DNA from: Bacteroidia bacterium
GTDB lineage: Bacteria > Bacteroidota > Bacteroidia > J057
Direction of reading: 5' to 3'
Assembly: GCA_030430575.1 (NCBI GenBank)
Contig: JAUIKF010000065.1
Span: forward strand, 1 to 42,212
Length of the DNA stretch: 42,212 nucleotides
The translations under genes were made by a program, and so were the position numbers. The notes under the pieces are model-generated. The model saw only the letters and a list, made by a program, of their open reading frames with translations. It searched no databases and was not told the origin of the DNA. Shown piece after piece: positions 11,536-21,252 of the stretch (position 1 is the stretch's first letter; each line of letters opens with the position of its first letter).

Positions 11536-13307
11536 CAGTACTGTCCTGCTTTGGTTACGTTATACAAAAATTTCTGCATGTCCCATGCTGAAGTGGGGCA
11601 TCGCTCCGCACACAGCCCACAATGCAGGCATACATCTTCGTCTTTGACCATGACGCGCTTGGTAGGCAAGATGTCAGAGACATAGAGGTCCTGCTCTTTG
11701 TTCTCGGCTGGCGCGTTGAGGCGAGTTCGGAGGTCTTCTTCCTCCCCGTTTTCTGTAAAAGTGATACACGTTGTCGGGCAAATGTCCACACAGGCATCAC
11801 ATTCGATACAGAGATTTTCGGTGAAAACAGTCTGCACGTCGCAGTTCAGGCAGCGCTGCGCTTCCTTATAACCTTCCAGCTTGGTGAAGCCGAGTTCTAC
11901 TTCGACCTTGCGGTCTTTGAGAGTGATCGTTTTATCCTCGTGAGCAACCGCATAGCGCTCGTCGTCTACGACGGGGCTGTCATACATCCACTCGTGGATG
12001 CCCATCTTTTGGCGATAGAGGTTGGTCGTAGGCGCAGGGCGATCCATGACGTCCTTGCCTTCACAAAACTGGTGAATGGAGATCGCGGCTTGGTGGCCGT
12101 GGGCCGCCGCTGTGATGATATTCTCAGGCCCAAAGGCCGCGTCACCCCCAAAGAATACCTTTGGCAGCGTAGATTGAAAACTCGTCTTGTCGAGTACCGG
12201 GATGTCCCATTTGCCAAATTCAATCCCCAAATCGCGCTCTATCCACGGGAAGGCATTGTCCTGTCCGATGGCGATGATGACATCGTCTGCTTCGATGAAG
12301 ACATCTGGCTCTCCCGTAGGGATGAGCTTACGGCGGCCATTTTCATATTCGGCGCGCACTTTACCAAAGATCATCCCTTTGAGCTTGCCGTCTTCCACTA
12401 CAAATTCCTTGGGCGGCATATTGTTCATGATGGGGATATCCTCCAACTGGGCGTCTTTGATCTCCCAGGCGGAAGCCTTCATGTCTTGGAAAGGACTTCG
12501 GACGATTACTTTCACATCTTCTCCGCCGAGGCGGCGAGAGGTCCGGCAGCAGTCCATAGCGGTATTTCCACCACCTAGGATGATGACCTTTTTGCCTACT
12601 TTATCTTTATGCTCAAACGCTACACTGGCGAGAAATTCGATCCCAATATGGACGTTTTTGTCAGCGGCTTCCCTTCCAGGGAGGTTGAGGTCTCGTCCTT
12701 TGGGGGCGCCTGTGCCTACAAATACAGCGTCGTATTCTTTGTCCAGAATCTCCTTCATGCTGTCCACATACTGGTTGAAATGGGTGTGGACACCCATATC
12801 GAGAATGTAGTTTACCTCTTCGTCTAGCACCGACTCAGGCAAGCGAAAGGAGGGAATCTGCGTGCGCATCATGCCGCCGCCTTTGTGCCACTCATCGTAG
12901 AGATGGAGTTCATAGCCTAGCGGTGCCAAGTCACGTGCCACAGTCAGGGAGGCAGGGCCTCCACCGATCAAGGCGATGCGCTTGCCGTTCGAAGGAAACG
13001 GCCCTTGGGGCATGCGACTTTTGACTTCGCCTTTGTTGTCTGCTGCTACGCGCTTCAATCGACAGATCGCCACAGGCTCTTCTTCTATTCGTCCACGACG
13101 GCAGGCCGGTTCGCAAGGCCGGTCACAGGTACGCCCCAGAATTCCTGGGAATACATTGGATTCCCAATTGACCATATAGGCATCAGTATAGCGCTCAGCG
13201 GCTATCAGGCGGATGTATTCTGGAACAGGGGTATGAGCAGGGCAGGCGTGCTGACAATCCACTACTTTATGAAAGTATTCAGGGTTGTCAATATTGGTAG
13301 GTTTCAC
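11535..13307 (-). CDS. GltD-like FAD oxidoreductase fused to a 2x[4Fe-4S] ferredoxin
   Basis: 590 residues, GTG start. The N-terminus is an iron-sulfur domain of the glutamate-synthase small-subunit type (CQHACPAHTPVPEY, then GRTCDRPCEPACRRG). It is followed by the FAD-binding motif GGGPASLTVARDL (about 118), a NAD(P)-binding motif ILGGGNTAMDCCR (about 245) and the FAD-pocket motif FFGGDAAFGPENI. The C-terminal 120 residues hold CLNCDVQ, CIECDACVDICPTTC and CLHCGLCAERCPTSAW, giving two ferredoxin clusters. As first gene of the korA-korB operon it very probably takes electrons from the oxidoreductase and delivers them to NAD(P)+ or runs in reverse. No GltB is nearby, so glutamate synthase function is not supported. 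Confidence 0.9.
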   Translation of the reverse strand: MKPTNIDNPEYFHKVVDCQHACPAHTPVPEYIRLIAAERYTDAYMVNWESNVFPGILGRTCDRPCEPACRRGRIEEEPVAICRLKRVAADNKGEVKSRMPQGPFPSNGKRIALIGGGPASLTVARDLAPLGYELHLYDEWHKGGGMMRTQIPSFRLPESVLDEEVNYILDMGVHTHFNQYVDSMKEILDKEYDAVFVGTGAPKGRDLNLPGREAADKNVHIGIEFLASVAFEHKDKVGKKVIILGGGNTAMDCCRTSRRLGGEDVKVIVRSPFQDMKASAWEIKDAQLEDIPIMNNMPPKEFVVEDGKLKGMIFGKVRAEYENGRRKLIPTGEPDVFIEADDVIIAIGQDNAFPWIERDLGIEFGKWDIPVLDKTSFQSTLPKVFFGGDAAFGPENIITAAAHGHQAAISIHQFCEGKDVMDRPAPTTNLYRQKMGIHEWMYDSPVVDDERYAVAHEDKTITLKDRKVEVELGFTKLEGYKEAQRCLNCDVQTVFTENLCIECDACVDICPTTCITFTENGEEEDLRTRLNAPAENKEQDLYVSDILPTKRVMVKDEDVCLHCGLCAERCPTSAWDMQKFLYNVTKAGQY

Positions 13308-17642: not shown

Positions 17643-17647
17643 AGGAG

Positions 17648-17794
17648 GGGAGTTCAGAGTTCAGGGGGCAGAGTTCGGGGTTCAGCGTTCGAATGTTCAG
17701 GGCTCTTTTTGTCTTTAAACATCCTGCCTAAACCAGCGTTTCATTACTTTTAAGAAATAAAGATTTCTACCCTAAACCCTGAACTCTGAACCTC
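17648..17794. repeat. heptamer word array (GTTCAGA type), inverted pair flanking a spacer
   Basis: From 17652 the sequence reads GTTCAGA GTTCAGG GGGCAGA GTTCGGG GTTCAGC in seven-base steps. The matching inverted partner CCCTGAACTCTGAACCT is at 17777-17793, close to the next start codon. The arms are separated by about 110 bp, so together they could form a long hairpin spanning the whole spacer between the CAP and NUDIX genes. Confidence 0.7.
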
Positions 17795-17801
17795 TTCCCC
17801 C

Positions 17802-18434
17802 ATGCAGCTGCTAACTCAACAACTCAAAACACGTCTCCAACACCCCTTGCCTGGCTTGCCTGCGCAATTAGAAATGGCGCCACCTGCCCGAGGCACGGGC
17901 GAACTGGTGATCCCTGATAATGCCCGTCATAGCGCGGTGCTTGTCCTTTTATATCCTCATGAGGAGCGTCCTCATGTGGCTTTTATGAAACGAGCTGATG
18001 ATGGTCATGTGCATAGTGGGCAGATCAGTTTTCCTGGAGGAAAAGTGGAGGAGGGTGATCGAGACTATACTCATACCGCCCTGCGGGAGGCGGAGGAGGA
18101 GTTGGGAATTCCTCCCAAGGAGGTGGAAGTACTGGGGCGGTTGACAGATATGTATATCCCTGTCAGCAATTTTTTGGTAGTGCCCAATCTTGGGGTGATG
18201 CATGAACGCCCAGATTTTGTGATAGACCCGGTAGAAGTGGCTCAAGTAGTAGAGGTAGGCCTGGATGTGTTCCAACAGCATGAAGTGCGTGCCGTGCGCA
18301 AGATCGAACAGCGGACGCGCTGGGGGCATTATGAGACGCGCTCCCCTTCTTTTAAAATTGGGGAGCACATCATCTGGGGGGCGACGGCCATGATGCTCAA
18401 CGAGCTGTTAACGATTGTTGAGGGATTGGATTAA
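17802..18434 (+). CDS. NUDIX hydrolase, CoA-pyrophosphatase-like
   Basis: 210 residues. The NUDIX box is complete: GGKVEEGD...ALREAEEELGI (about residues 78-100), providing the metal-binding REAEEE core. Just before it is HVAFMKRADDGHVHSGQISFPGG, where SGQISFPGG is the sequence context of the CoA-pyrophosphatase (NudL/PCD1) subgroup, which cleaves CoA and its derivatives to phosphopantetheine and 3',5'-ADP. Substrate is inferred from this motif only. The C-terminal 38 bp overlap the end of the convergent deacetylase gene. Confidence 0.9.
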   Translation: MQLLTQQLKTRLQHPLPGLPAQLEMAPPARGTGELVIPDNARHSAVLVLLYPHEERPHVAFMKRADDGHVHSGQISFPGGKVEEGDRDYTHTALREAEEELGIPPKEVEVLGRLTDMYIPVSNFLVVPNLGVMHERPDFVIDPVEVAQVVEVGLDVFQQHEVRAVRKIEQRTRWGHYETRSPSFKIGEHIIWGATAMMLNELLTIVEGLD

Positions 18435-19056
18435 GGGCCTTGAAAGCGAAGCCTTCTTGCGCAAAATGGGCCAAGATTTGGGGTAAAGCAATAGATAGAT
18501 GGGGAAAAGCTTTTTCGCTATCATGGAGGCAGACGATGGAGCCTGCTTGGGCGTTTAGCATCACATTCTGTATCACTTTTTCAGGAGCAAGAGACCTGTC
18601 AAAGTCACCTGCCATGACATCCATCATCACCACCTGGTGACTCTTCATGATCTGACGCGCTTGTTTTCGGGTGATCCGCCCATAGGGAGGTCGAAAGAGG
18701 GCCGTTTTGTATCCCGTATATTCTCGGATCGCTTGTTGTCCTTTCAAAAAATCTTTCAGGTAAACGGCTAGCGGTGTCTTCCAGCCGTTGGGATGGGCAT
18801 AGCTATGATTGCCTAGGCTATGGCCAGCATCGATGATGGTATGTGCTAATTTTGGGTGTGCTTTGACATTTTTCCCCAACACAAAAAAAGTCGCCTGGGC
18901 ATCATACGACGCCAATTGGTCCAGAACCCAATCTGTTATCTCTGGACATGGCCCATCGTCAAAGGTGAGGTAAAGTACCTTTTCGGTTCGGTTGTGATGC
19001 CAAAGGTAGTTTGGGTAAAGGGTTTGGAGGATTTGGGGAATTTTCGCGAGAAACAT
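18397..19056 (-). CDS. polysaccharide deacetylase (NodB domain)
   Basis: 219 residues. The NodB fold is shown by motif 1 LYLTFDDGPCPE (catalytic base and metal Asp, about 29-39), motif 2 GHSLGNHSYAHPNGW (the H-xxx-H metal pair, about 77-91), motif 3 LFRPPYGRIT (about 115), motif 4 MMDVMAGDFDRS and motif 5 IVCLHDSEKAF. It removes N- or O-acetyl groups from a polysaccharide such as peptidoglycan or chitin oligomers. No signal peptide is evident, although the hydrophobic N-terminus starts abruptly. The first seven codons (MFLAKIP) are also present at 19752, upstream of the inserted KilA-N gene, suggesting that an insertion separated the gene from its old promoter. Confidence 0.92.
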   Translation of the reverse strand: MFLAKIPQILQTLYPNYLWHHNRTEKVLYLTFDDGPCPEITDWVLDQLASYDAQATFFVLGKNVKAHPKLAHTIIDAGHSLGNHSYAHPNGWKTPLAVYLKDFLKGQQAIREYTGYKTALFRPPYGRITRKQARQIMKSHQVVMMDVMAGDFDRSLAPEKVIQNVMLNAQAGSIVCLHDSEKAFPHLSIALPQILAHFAQEGFAFKALNPIPQQSLTAR

Positions 19057-19058
19057 AG
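19037..19058. repeat. 22-bp direct repeat, left copy (deacetylase 5' end)
   Basis: GGAATTTTCGCGAGAAACAT plus AG. It encodes MFLAKIP on the minus strand as the live start of the deacetylase. The right copy differs at one base. Confidence 0.8.
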
Positions 19059-19075
19059 TCGGTGGAACTCCTAAC

Positions 19076-19678
19076 TTAAAACTTAATCAGACAATCCTTT
19101 AGTGAGCAGCTGCTGATCTCGATAATAAATTCCCAGTTGAACTGTTTGAAAGTGGATTGTGGAAGCAAATTCTGCTTTACGGCTTCAGTTTGTAGCTTAT
19201 AGTTACGTTTAGTTAAAAAGCGTTGTACACTCCATTCAATTTGATTGTTAGCGGCTTCTTCAGATTTGAGGCGATCAAATTCTGAGATAAGCAGCAATTT
19301 GAATTCAGCAGAAATAAAACTTCCAAATTCAAAAGCAATGAGTTTATCTCCAAACGTACCACCATACCTGCCCATCTTCACAAAAATGCCTTTCGCATCT
19401 GTCCGTTTTACCCATTCAGTAGGAGAAAGGGTAAATGCGTTTTCACCAGCATGCTCCATAAGTCCATCGAATTCGATGGACTTAAAAGAGGGATTGTACA
19501 GACGTTCCCAAGCTGCAAGGAACCGTAGGGTGTTTCTGCTACGAAGCCAGTTGCTTATTACCATATCTGGCCTAGGAAGTGACCTTGCCATATCTGTCAA
19601 GCAGATATAATCTCGCTGGGCATGTTGTTGCCAGTTTATGGTAATATTTTGGACTTCTATCTTTTTACGTTTTGCCAT
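19076..19678 (-). pseudogene. KilA-N domain protein, C-terminus probably frameshifted
   Basis: 200 residues as read. KilA-N is a DNA-binding domain common in phage and large DNA virus proteins. Visible signature: QRDYICLTDMARS (about 19-31), DMVISNWLRSRNTLRFLAAWE, then NPSFKSIEFDGL and the central SPTEWVKRTDAKGIFVKMGRYGGTFGDKLIAFEF stretch given here in part (WVKRTDAKGIFVKMG and GGTFGDKLIAFEF). The domain is intact to about residue 165. The last 20 residues read EIISS-type low-quality sequence; the next frame instead gives YRDQQLLTKGLSD and a stop at 19083, which looks like a proper C-terminus, so a one-base deletion near 19128 is likely. The DNA-binding part could still work. Confidence 0.7.
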
Positions 19679-19705
19679 TTGGATTACTTATTCAATCTTG
19701 ATGAT

Positions 19706-19713
19706 CAAAAATA
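19706..19713 (-). promoter_or_regulatory. -7 promoter box TATTTTTG of the KilA-N gene
   Basis: Exact match to TAnnTTTG on the minus strand, 28 nt before the ATG at 19678 and inside the candidate cassette, so the gene carries its own promoter. No good -33 element was seen. Confidence 0.45.
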
Positions 19714-19732
19714 CTTTTGTTTAATAACGCCT

Positions 19733-19754
19733 GGAATTTTCGCAAGAAACATAG
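19733..19754. repeat. 22-bp direct repeat, right copy
   Basis: Differs from 19037-19058 at one base. On the minus strand it again reads ATG TTT CTT GCG AAA ATT CC; the frame goes on for only 15 codons (MFLAKIPGVIKQKYF) before a stop at about 19706, as expected for a severed gene start. Confidence 0.8.
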
Positions 19755-19845: not shown

Positions 19846-21252
19846 GTGGCTAAGTCAGATGTGCCTACACGCTATGCGATCATCGATCTGGAGACTACTG
19901 GGGGGAGTCCTCAGCGAGATCGGATCACTGAGGTAGCCATCATCGTCTACGACCAGTCTACCGTCATCGACCGATATAGCACTCTCGTCAATCCTGAGCG
20001 TGCCATCCCCACCGAGATCACTCGGCTCACAGGGATCAATAATGACATGGTCAAAGAAGCTCCACGCTTCTTCGAGGTGGCGCGTAAGATCGTAGAGCTG
20101 ACAGAAGGAGCTGTATTTGTAGCGCATAATGTGCGATTCGATTATGGCTTTTTGCACCAGGCGTTTCGCCGCTTAGGCTATTCCTACACCCGCAAGCAGC
20201 TCTGCACCGTGAAACTGGCACGCAAGCTGCTCCCAGGCTTGCGCTCCTACAGCCTCGGGAACCTGTGCAAAGAACTGAAGATCGTCAACAATACAGCCCA
20301 CCGAGCGATGAGTGATGCAGAAGCCACGCTGGAGCTATTTCAGTACCTGACAAATGACCGCGCCAAGCCGCAATTATCCCTCACCCTACAGGCTGAGATC
20401 GCCACAAGCAAGCTTCCCCCAAACCTCGACCCCAAACTGATCGACGACCTCCCTGACGAAGCAGGCGTCTATTATTTCTATGACCATAAAGGCAGCATCC
20501 TCTATATCGGCAAGAGCAATAAGGTCCGCAAACGGGTGCTCTCTCATTTCTCCGCTGCGCATAAGACTTCGCGGACCCTGCGCCTGATGGCCCAGATAGC
20601 AGACATCAGTTATACCCTCACCGGCAGTGAGTTGATCGCATTGTTATTGGAAAATGAGGAAATCAAACGGCACTTGCCGCCTTTCAATCGCAAACAACGA
20701 CGACGCCATTTGAAGATCGCCGTCTACGATGAAGTCGATAAAAAAGGCTATCGCCGCTTGGGCATCAACTCCTTTGATCCGGAGAATCCGCCGTTGGCTG
20801 GCTTTGCAGACCGAACGCGCGCCGAACGCGCCCTCCAGCGCAAGGCGGAAGCCTACCAGCTATGTATGGGCCTCTGTGGCCTCGCCACTTGTAGCGGGAA
20901 GGCTTGTTTCTATCAGCAATTGAAGTTATGTCAAGGAGCTGCTGTAGGCATGGAGTCTCCAGAAGACTATAACGAGCGCGTGGAAGAGGCCATCGCCAAC
21001 CTTATCTATGGAGAGGCTCACTTTCTCGTGATTGGCGAAGGCCGATCCCCTGAAGAGCGTTCGGTCGTGGCGGTAGAAAGGGGCATCTATCAGGGATTTG
21101 GGTATTTTGAACCCGATTTTGTGGGGGGAGATCTGGAGGAGATCCGCGCCGCTGTGGTGCCAAAGGACGAAACACCAGACGTCAGACAGATCATCCAAGG
21201 CTATGTGCGTAAGCATCCTGGGGAGGTGGTGAAGATGGAGGAGAATGAATAA
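19846..21252 (+). CDS. DEDDh 3'-5' exonuclease fused to GIY-YIG (UvrC/Cho-like) nuclease
   Basis: 468 residues, GTG start (a second GTG is at 19861; the first in-frame ATG is far inside the exonuclease domain). Residues 9-175 are a DNA polymerase III epsilon-type exonuclease: AIIDLETTGGSPQ (ExoI Asp and Glu), LTGINNDMV, VAHNVRFDYGFL (ExoII) and HRAMSDAEATLELF (ExoIII with catalytic His and Asp). Residues 205-290 are a GIY-YIG domain: AGVYYFYDHKGSILYIGKS, then KRVLSHF and the catalytic Glu in LLLENEEIKRHLPPFN. A Cys-rich segment follows (YQLCMGLCGLATCSGKACFY). This architecture is known in actinobacteria and Bacteroidota and is thought to act in DNA repair by nicking and trimming. The C-terminus (KMEENE) merges with a GAGAATG word array. 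Confidence 0.92.
   Translation: MAKSDVPTRYAIIDLETTGGSPQRDRITEVAIIVYDQSTVIDRYSTLVNPERAIPTEITRLTGINNDMVKEAPRFFEVARKIVELTEGAVFVAHNVRFDYGFLHQAFRRLGYSYTRKQLCTVKLARKLLPGLRSYSLGNLCKELKIVNNTAHRAMSDAEATLELFQYLTNDRAKPQLSLTLQAEIATSKLPPNLDPKLIDDLPDEAGVYYFYDHKGSILYIGKSNKVRKRVLSHFSAAHKTSRTLRLMAQIADISYTLTGSELIALLLENEEIKRHLPPFNRKQRRRHLKIAVYDEVDKKGYRRLGINSFDPENPPLAGFADRTRAERALQRKAEAYQLCMGLCGLATCSGKACFYQQLKLCQGAAVGMESPEDYNERVEEAIANLIYGEAHFLVIGEGRSPEERSVVAVERGIYQGFGYFEPDFVGGDLEEIRAAVVPKDETPDVRQIIQGYVRKHPGEVVKMEENE

Follow-up and report, generated by a model that had tools for sequence, protein, structure and literature searches.

A palindrome within PDC-S22 KilA-N genes as a candidate self-tag that phages may counterfeit

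Introduction

Why does a lone KilA-N gene stand between two copies of the start of a deacetylase gene, and why does its coding sequence hold a perfect palindrome? The locus that raises these questions lies in contig JAUIKF010000065.1 of a Bacteroidia bacterium (assembly GCA_030430575.1), of which positions 1 to 42,212, the whole stretch of DNA analysed, are called the window here. An earlier note on this DNA had proposed that a cassette of about 700 bp entered the deacetylase gene and restored its start. We find that the KilA-N gene belongs to PDC-S22 of PADLOC, a widespread candidate anti-phage gene family. Our overall reading, to which we give a probability of about two in three, is that the gene is a truncated copy of a mobile PDC-S22 gene, that PDC-S22 protein reads the palindrome in its own gene, and that phages counterfeit this self-tag. 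Two features of the window are at the centre of the argument:

19076..19678, minus strand: KilA-N gene, PADLOC family PDC-S22, 200 amino acids, 3'-truncated (open reading frame (ORF), Pfam, PADLOC and alignments)
19459..19484, no strand: perfect 26-bp palindrome in the coding sequence, codons 65-74, proposed self-tag (repeat finder and comparison)

Results

The window gene is a truncated PDC-S22 gene

Pfam gave KilA-N as the only domain of the window protein (E 2.8e-14), with no nuclease domain of the kind expected of a free-standing homing endonuclease. The protein matched the PDC-S22 profile of PADLOC, an entry without description, at E 3.8e-74 over only positions 1-181 of 281; no NCBIfam family was found for it. 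The same profile is covered almost end to end by the proteins of loci L006 and L002 and is also matched by a Streptococcus satellite protein. Alignment with relatives, including L006 at 58% identity, places the end of homology at about residue 187-198 of the window protein. The copy is thus short of the C-terminal 80-90 amino acids or so of a full-length PDC-S22, with its frame open, and a search of the window for the missing piece gave no match below E 0.4. Because this C-terminal domain is absent, though the KilA-N domain and a perfect tag are kept, the window copy is probably inactive for defence. Two further full-length PDC-S22 relatives, 44% and 39% identical to the window protein, are present in the same genome.

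Most PDC-S22 genes hold a palindrome at a fixed codon

We compared the window gene with the best 80 of at least 558 confirmed genome loci, the best 80 of 115 viral loci, 30 phylum loci, and an added sample of 13 stretches from genomes of the family together with the window. The 213 ORF matches merged into 201 distinct fragments, and the motif WExxNP was found in 177 of these. Three of the 213 rows lacked an aligned residue at the reference W; the other 210 gave sites, 179 of them distinct. The peptide used in the viral search, WExxNPxF[NK], overlaps the conserved outer flank of the element and not its arms.

In the window the palindrome is part of a 30-bp element spanning 19457-19486. The common form is TTTAA-N6-CGAATTCG-N6-TTAAA or near it, with arms that are variable but complementary. 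Among the first 12 other copies, the best loop-less palindrome lay at the same codon in 10, none with the arms of the window; in L009 and L012 a palindrome appeared at the shared codon only if a loop was allowed. Among the motif-bearing ORFs, 172 of 177 had their best palindrome centred 39 nucleotides beyond the tryptophan codon of WExxNP and five had it elsewhere; the stem score had its mode at 13, against scores of 4-11 (mode 6) in codon-shuffled ORFs. The sources bearing the palindrome include Bacteroidota, Clostridia, Proteobacteria, Spirochaetia, candidate phyla, phages and Streptococcus satellites. In an AlphaFold2 (AF2) model of the L002 protein (mean predicted local distance difference test score 92), helix 66-75 is mostly coded by the palindrome.

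The two arms change together. At arm positions 4-10, pairing was seen in 86-97% of the 179 distinct sites, against 31-81% expected from independence of the columns. All six arm pairs were perfect in 103 of 179 sites, comprising 31 different arms, while random re-pairing gave a mean of 5.4 and a maximum of 15 in 1000 trials. In 135 distinct 32-mers, the real partners formed 6.25 pairs of 7 and slid partners 1.4-2.3. When the codons of these 32-mers were redrawn with the amino acids kept, the mean fell to 5.17 pairs of 7, and perfect sites dropped from 68 of 135 to a mean of 16 (maximum 26). Since pairing drops when codons are redrawn, the constraint acts on the DNA beyond the protein sequence.

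Two helix residues follow the arm bases

If the protein reads the palindrome, changes in the arms are expected to go with changes in DNA-contacting residues. Over 3425 protein pairs of 60-97% identity, with the palindrome-coded segment excluded, arm difference correlated best with residues 42 (r 0.54), 41 (0.48) and 31 (0.45), the median over residues being -0.03. Residues 41 and 42 both belong to the second helix (39-45) of the L002 model. We then counted residue and base pairs for the left arm in 148 representatives, one per 80% identity cluster. At position 5, residue 42 paired as N42-T in 101 of 102, D42-G in 14 of 14, K42-C in 11 of 12 and R42-C in 2 of 2; at position 6, residue 41 paired as K41-G in 33 of 33, R41-G in 16 of 17, E41-C in 10 of 10 and Q41-A in 22 of 37. 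Pairings of Asn with T, Asp with G, Lys or Arg with G, and Glu with C agree with known amino acid-base preferences. The right arm, counted without clustering, gave N42-T in 123 of 123 and D42-G in 16 of 16. The strongest association reached a z-score of 27.5, compared with a median over residues of 2.3 for the best z, both from letter shuffles that leave the tree out of the model.

The code also predicts. With each representative left out in turn at 80% clustering, the predicted base was right more often than the commonest base, in 130 versus 109 of 145 cases and in 112 versus 73 of 148; prediction was above the commonest base at 65% clustering too. At 55% clustering, which leaves 26 proteins, residue 42 still did better than the baseline (20 versus 15 of 21). 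The window copy, with S41, N42 and the arm GTCCAT, satisfies the residue-42 rule. These sequence patterns make it very probable that PDC-S22 protein binds the palindrome that its gene contains.

Viral contigs and phages carry the element without the gene

A scan for TTTAA-N6-CGAATTCG-N6-TTAAA returned 118 stretches in viral contigs. A control of the same composition, with the centre exchanged for GCTTAAGC, returned none there and none among named phages. Eighty of the 118 stretches were examined and 38 left out; the elements lay in PDC-S22 ORFs at 33 of the 80 loci and outside them at 47. In the records of these 47, a search that had no internal positive control, on records that may be fragments, gave no PDC-S22 match (0 of 47). 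At L351 there is a 16-residue PDC-S22 match that covers the tag itself. The elements outside PDC-S22 ORFs tend to avoid coding sequence, 27 of 47 lying outside all ORFs of at least 60 codons compared with 8.1 expected, and tandem elements occur at L300, L339 and L308. In 36 of 43 distinct viral elements the two halves are unequal, and in nine of these both halves are known PDC-S22 arms. Altogether 52 of 86 half-sites fall within the PDC-S22 repertoire, which comprises 82 of 4096 possible half-sites, whereas column shuffles gave a mean of 11.6 and a maximum of 21.

Among named phages, the tag of the Streptococcus satellites was found in 29 records (Streptococcus 19, Staphylococcus 6, Lactobacillaceae 3, unnamed host 1). 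Seven of these are PDC-S22 genes and 22 are not; three phages had been deposited twice. We inspected nine of the 22 together with seven matches of other queries, one being common to both. With the exception of H67, where the element is inside an annotated ORF, the inspected elements lie between genes or start in the last bases of a gene. Their places are unrelated: before capsid or scaffold genes, beside an integrase, after a dUTPase, and next to a gene for tRNA-His guanylyltransferase. In Lactobacillus phage LR1 a perfect 34-bp palindrome of the scanned form, with arms ACCGGT, stands between integrase and recombinase.

Three other leads were set aside. An association of viral elements with tRNAs was dropped, tRNAs being present at two of 47 loci and adjacent only at L341. 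A match in lactobacillus plasmid pWCFS101, where a 9-bp stem and a 6-nucleotide loop precede a T-rich stretch, is possibly a terminator, and 18 lactobacillus plasmids matched at E 0.7 are not counted as evidence.

Further tags near PDC-S22 genes

In 4 of 179 loci a gene's own half-site occurred once more as an exact copy, compared with 0-1 when the half-sites of other genes were used; with one mismatch allowed there was no excess (15 versus 11-12 in controls). Elements of other types lie about 30-130 nucleotides before the expected start of several PDC-S22 genes, for example L165, L114, L112 and L125, and some upstream elements of this sort sit in truncated PDC-S22 fragments (L157, L166 and L094). 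In the window's own genome, the pattern with up to two mismatches matched only in two of the three PDC-S22 genes.

Some single loci deserve mention. At L166 a PDC-S22 gene and two fragments stand side by side, with three different tags within about 1 kb. A 43-kb contig (L064) has two palindromic tags outside its PDC-S22 gene, at G002:C2:9348-9377 and 12509-12538, which have five or six arm positions in common with the tag of that gene. Similar 25-bp hairpins flank the PDC-S22 gene of L006 (1182-1206 and 2191-2215) and are possibly terminators or element borders.

The window copy between two deacetylase starts

The surroundings of the window gene comprise the following features:

19037..19058, minus strand: direct repeat copy 1, true deacetylase start (repeat finder, genome search and relatives)
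19733..19754, minus strand: direct repeat copy 2, dead deacetylase start (repeat finder and genome search)
19705..19752, minus strand: 15-codon dead ORF MFLAKIPGVIKQKYF (sequence reading)
19706..19713, minus strand: TATTTTTG, fits a TAnnTTTG box (sequence reading)
18397..19056, minus strand: polysaccharide deacetylase, intact, Polysacc_deac_1 (ORF, Pfam and relatives)
19846..21252, plus strand: RNase T exonuclease with GIY-YIG domain, divergent neighbour outside the element (ORF and Pfam)
17802..18434, plus strand: NUDIX hydrolase, convergent neighbour (ORF and Pfam)

The earlier note had described two 22-bp direct repeats with 21 identical positions, and this description stands: they are the sole two sites in the whole 8.16-Mb genome, no third being found with up to three mismatches, and when the region was resampled 1000 times with a first-order Markov model, nothing comparable appeared. 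On the minus strand each of the two repeats reads MFLAKIP, with the deacetylase continuing from 19037-19058 only, and the dead upstream start that the note had described is indeed there as a 15-codon ORF, 19752-19705. The order on the minus strand is the dead start, the KilA-N gene (19678-19076) and the true deacetylase start (19056-18397). Repeat copy 1 is taken as the working start because in most relatives the N-terminus is MYxxxxP-like at the matching place. The sequence TATTTTTG at 19706-19713 agrees with TAnnTTTG, the consensus of the Bacteroidetes -7 box; it ends 27 nucleotides before the KilA-N ATG.

The flanking repeats would suit a transposable element. A transposase or integrase is absent from the element, whose main ORF has only KilA-N in Pfam; the repeat finder reported no terminal inverted repeats, and a search of the own genome for a further DNA copy of the cassette gave short matches at chance level only. 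A 16-bp match on contig C41 was rejected, being off-centre and chance-like; a script did not find the palindrome there. Insertion of a PDC-S22 gene at the deacetylase start with copying of 22 bp is plausible, and the locus is most simply read as a lone gene bordered by a duplicated gene start. The cassette of about 700 bp that the earlier note proposed is borne out in one respect, the movement of lone genes. The 674 bp between the repeats are not an intact cassette, since the PDC-S22 copy is 3'-truncated, and no empty site was found. Rebuilding of a gene start is thus one plausible reading of a single case.

The search for empty sites covered 22 genomes of the order, the own genome included. 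At the thresholds used, the deacetylase was found in 18 of them and the exonuclease in 16. Both genes were present in 14 relatives, where they lay on different contigs or far apart; short contigs limit this test of adjacency. The deacetylase of a same-genus genome has a different ORF upstream; a NUDIX-like ORF adjoins it there as well. As the exonuclease and deacetylase are apart in relatives and the upstream ORF differs within the genus, there is no true empty site: no relative has both flanks in common with the window. Nor are short direct repeats a habit of the family. When 13 KilA-N loci, the window included, were scanned, none of the 12 others had a comparable short repeat. The long flanking repeats of L007 and L009 are due to KilA-N genes in tandem, and the remaining ten loci scored at most 11 compared with shuffled maxima of 10-13, L003 being one above its own shuffles.

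Ordinary rearrangement, by tandem duplication or by a junction of a PDC-S22 remnant with the deacetylase, could have produced the repeats with no insertion that rebuilt a gene, and we hold it to be only a little short of an even chance. The gene is 3'-truncated at this junction, the neighbours of the deacetylase differ in relatives, and the 12 other KilA-N loci are without comparable repeats. What speaks for insertion is the near-perfect 22-bp repeat on both borders, as a target duplication would give.

Evidence that single PDC-S22 genes move comes from elsewhere in the same genome. There the mre operon has a full-length copy (L061:4497-5321, G000 contig C126) that separates mrdA from rodA and starts about 30 bp behind mrdA. 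In 11 of 11 informative relatives of the family mrdA and rodA adjoin without an insert; a twelfth contig ends inside rodA. Lone-gene movement of PDC-S22 is therefore real. A third copy (L062:9227-11372, G000 contig C17) was noted 67 bp behind a gene that looks, by eye, like one for a tyrosine recombinase. Elsewhere in the window, an intergenic inverted repeat, GTTCAGAGTTCAGGG ... CCCTGAACTCTGAAC, was read from the sequence at 17645-17800 and resembles a repetitive extragenic palindromic sequence or a miniature inverted-repeat transposable element.

Discussion

Taken together, the data suggest the following mechanism. A PDC-S22 dimer would recognise the palindrome of the gene that encodes it by the N6 arms, for which it would chiefly use residues 41 and 42 in the second helix of the helix-turn-helix. 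The palindrome would act as a self-tag, so that the protein either spares DNA with the cognate tag or is titrated by it; this self-immunity role is our inference from the comparison with BstA and its element aba, set out below. Phages that lack the gene may carry counterfeit tags, often made of half-sites of two types, and would thereby escape the PDC-S22 of a host or satellite. In its broadest form the proposal is of a system for recognition of self and non-self DNA across bacteria and mobile elements. The protein would bind the very segment that encodes part of its DNA-binding domain, and the arms would serve as identity codes, for the most part read by two helix residues. By gathering counterfeit half-sites that follow several of these codes, phages would pass for self. 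For this wider claim we see the odds as slightly better than even.

Several observations weigh on the other side. The palindrome is missing in members L163, L225, L238 and L419, the best one lies elsewhere in the gene in L072, and 76 of the 179 sites are imperfect. In the unclustered right arms, only 8 of the 15 sites with K42 have C, the other 7 having T. At 55% clustering residue 41 predicts position 6 no better than the commonest base (10 versus 10 of 22), and residues 87 and 101 do not pass at this level either; residue 85 has a strong association of unclear chemistry, and the shared tree is left out of the z-scores. On the viral side, the scan pattern fixes 18 bases and sees elements of that form only, the viral records may be fragments, with the limits given above for the 47 without a PDC-S22 match, and other tag types have few or no phage decoys. 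TTATGG was found in one record, a Helicobacter prophage, between genes; AGGTGT in 13, ten of them Streptococcus, others including Xanthomonas and Synechococcus; the Bacteroides type in four, two being PDC-S22 genes; and the Xenorhabdus type had no decoy in the phage collection. Finally, the defence role of PDC-S22 amounts to candidate status in PADLOC.

The palindrome could instead be an intragenic operator, the protein doing nothing but repress its own gene, a promoterless gene that settles in foreign operons, with the phage copies as chance or titration sites. The recognition code and cognate arms fit such an operator, and so does the mre-operon copy with its start just behind mrdA; extra copies of the own half-site are rare, so the intragenic site would be the sole operator. 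Autoregulation does not predict the elements of other specificity shortly upstream of L114, L165, L112 and L125, nor the scatter of elements over unrelated sites in viral contigs that lack the gene, and we regard it as unlikely. Much less probable again is a role in the messenger RNA as a stem with an AAUU loop. Perfect palindromes can fold and the arms covary, as such a stem would require; G-U is not favoured among the mismatches at positions 3-10 (38 G-T versus 35 A-C), the residues with which the arms covary belong to a DNA-binding helix, and the viral copies are mostly outside ORFs. Least credible is that neutral correction of quasi-palindromes by template switching, a known mutational process that would give coordinated changes, keeps an old and functionless palindrome perfect, as this leaves the residue-base code, the fixed codon across phyla and the viral elements unexplained.

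We return to the self-tag reading and compare it with known proteins. The KilA-N/APSES proteins Mbp1 (1bm8; Z 7.1, 2.7 Å, 83 aligned with AF2 residues 1-135) and PCG2 in complex with DNA (4ux5; Z 7.0, 3.4 Å, 91 aligned with residues 1-144) resemble the N-terminal part of the model, where such Z values can reflect a common arrangement, and the C-terminal helical part of PDC-S22 is extra. The best whole-chain match was the DNA-binding protein DdrC of Deinococcus (8u0g; Z 10.5 over 193 residues at a root-mean-square deviation of 8.3 Å), which Foldseek paired with the PDC-S22 model (m4a3d5f1bee1e) at E 5.1e-4, with 14% identity and a large deviation. A literature search, which mostly did not reach subscription papers and so is weak evidence, found no KilA-N protein described with a palindrome or inverted repeat. 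Among the papers searched, PDC-S22 turned up in one, a Streptococcus suis survey, which lists it as a co-occurring candidate.

The closest functional parallel is BstA (Owen et al. 2021, PMC8585504). This protein acts by abortive infection, has a KilA-N-like domain, and is suppressed in a cognate manner by aba, a DNA element that lies within the bstA locus. Both have a KilA-N or KilA-N-like N-terminal domain, and BstA is a single gene, often behind a prophage repressor; in two of the four Streptococcus satellites viewed, repressor, PDC-S22 and integrase stand in a row. A DNA element for self-immunity inside the gene locus, cognate to each homologue, would be common to both, as we propose for PDC-S22. 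The elements are built differently: aba, 63 bp long, lies at the start of the gene and contains direct CCCGCC repeats, whereas the PDC-S22 palindrome is near codon 70 and, unlike aba, has variable complementary arms and a visible recognition code. Counting against the parallel, BstA has no significant homology to the L002 protein or to A3, and the element found for PDC-S22 is a palindrome, not a set of direct repeats at the gene start. The window protein matched the PDC-S22 profile only and not that of BstA, the two being separate PADLOC families. Since there is no detectable homology and aba is built differently, we class PDC-S22 as working like BstA and aba, not as a member of that family.

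The 2021 study of BstA (PMC8585504) did not settle how proteins of this type interact with the immunity DNA cognate to them. For PDC-S22 the recognition can be read from the sequence, as two residues and two base positions across 148 representatives below 80% identity, and this residue-base code offers a direct binding test and predicts which phages are immune to which PDC-S22. Phage elements that look like counterfeits, which the accessible account of BstA does not mention (PMC8585504), are present for PDC-S22, and our findings suggest that phages forge the self-tags by which mobile defence genes are recognised.
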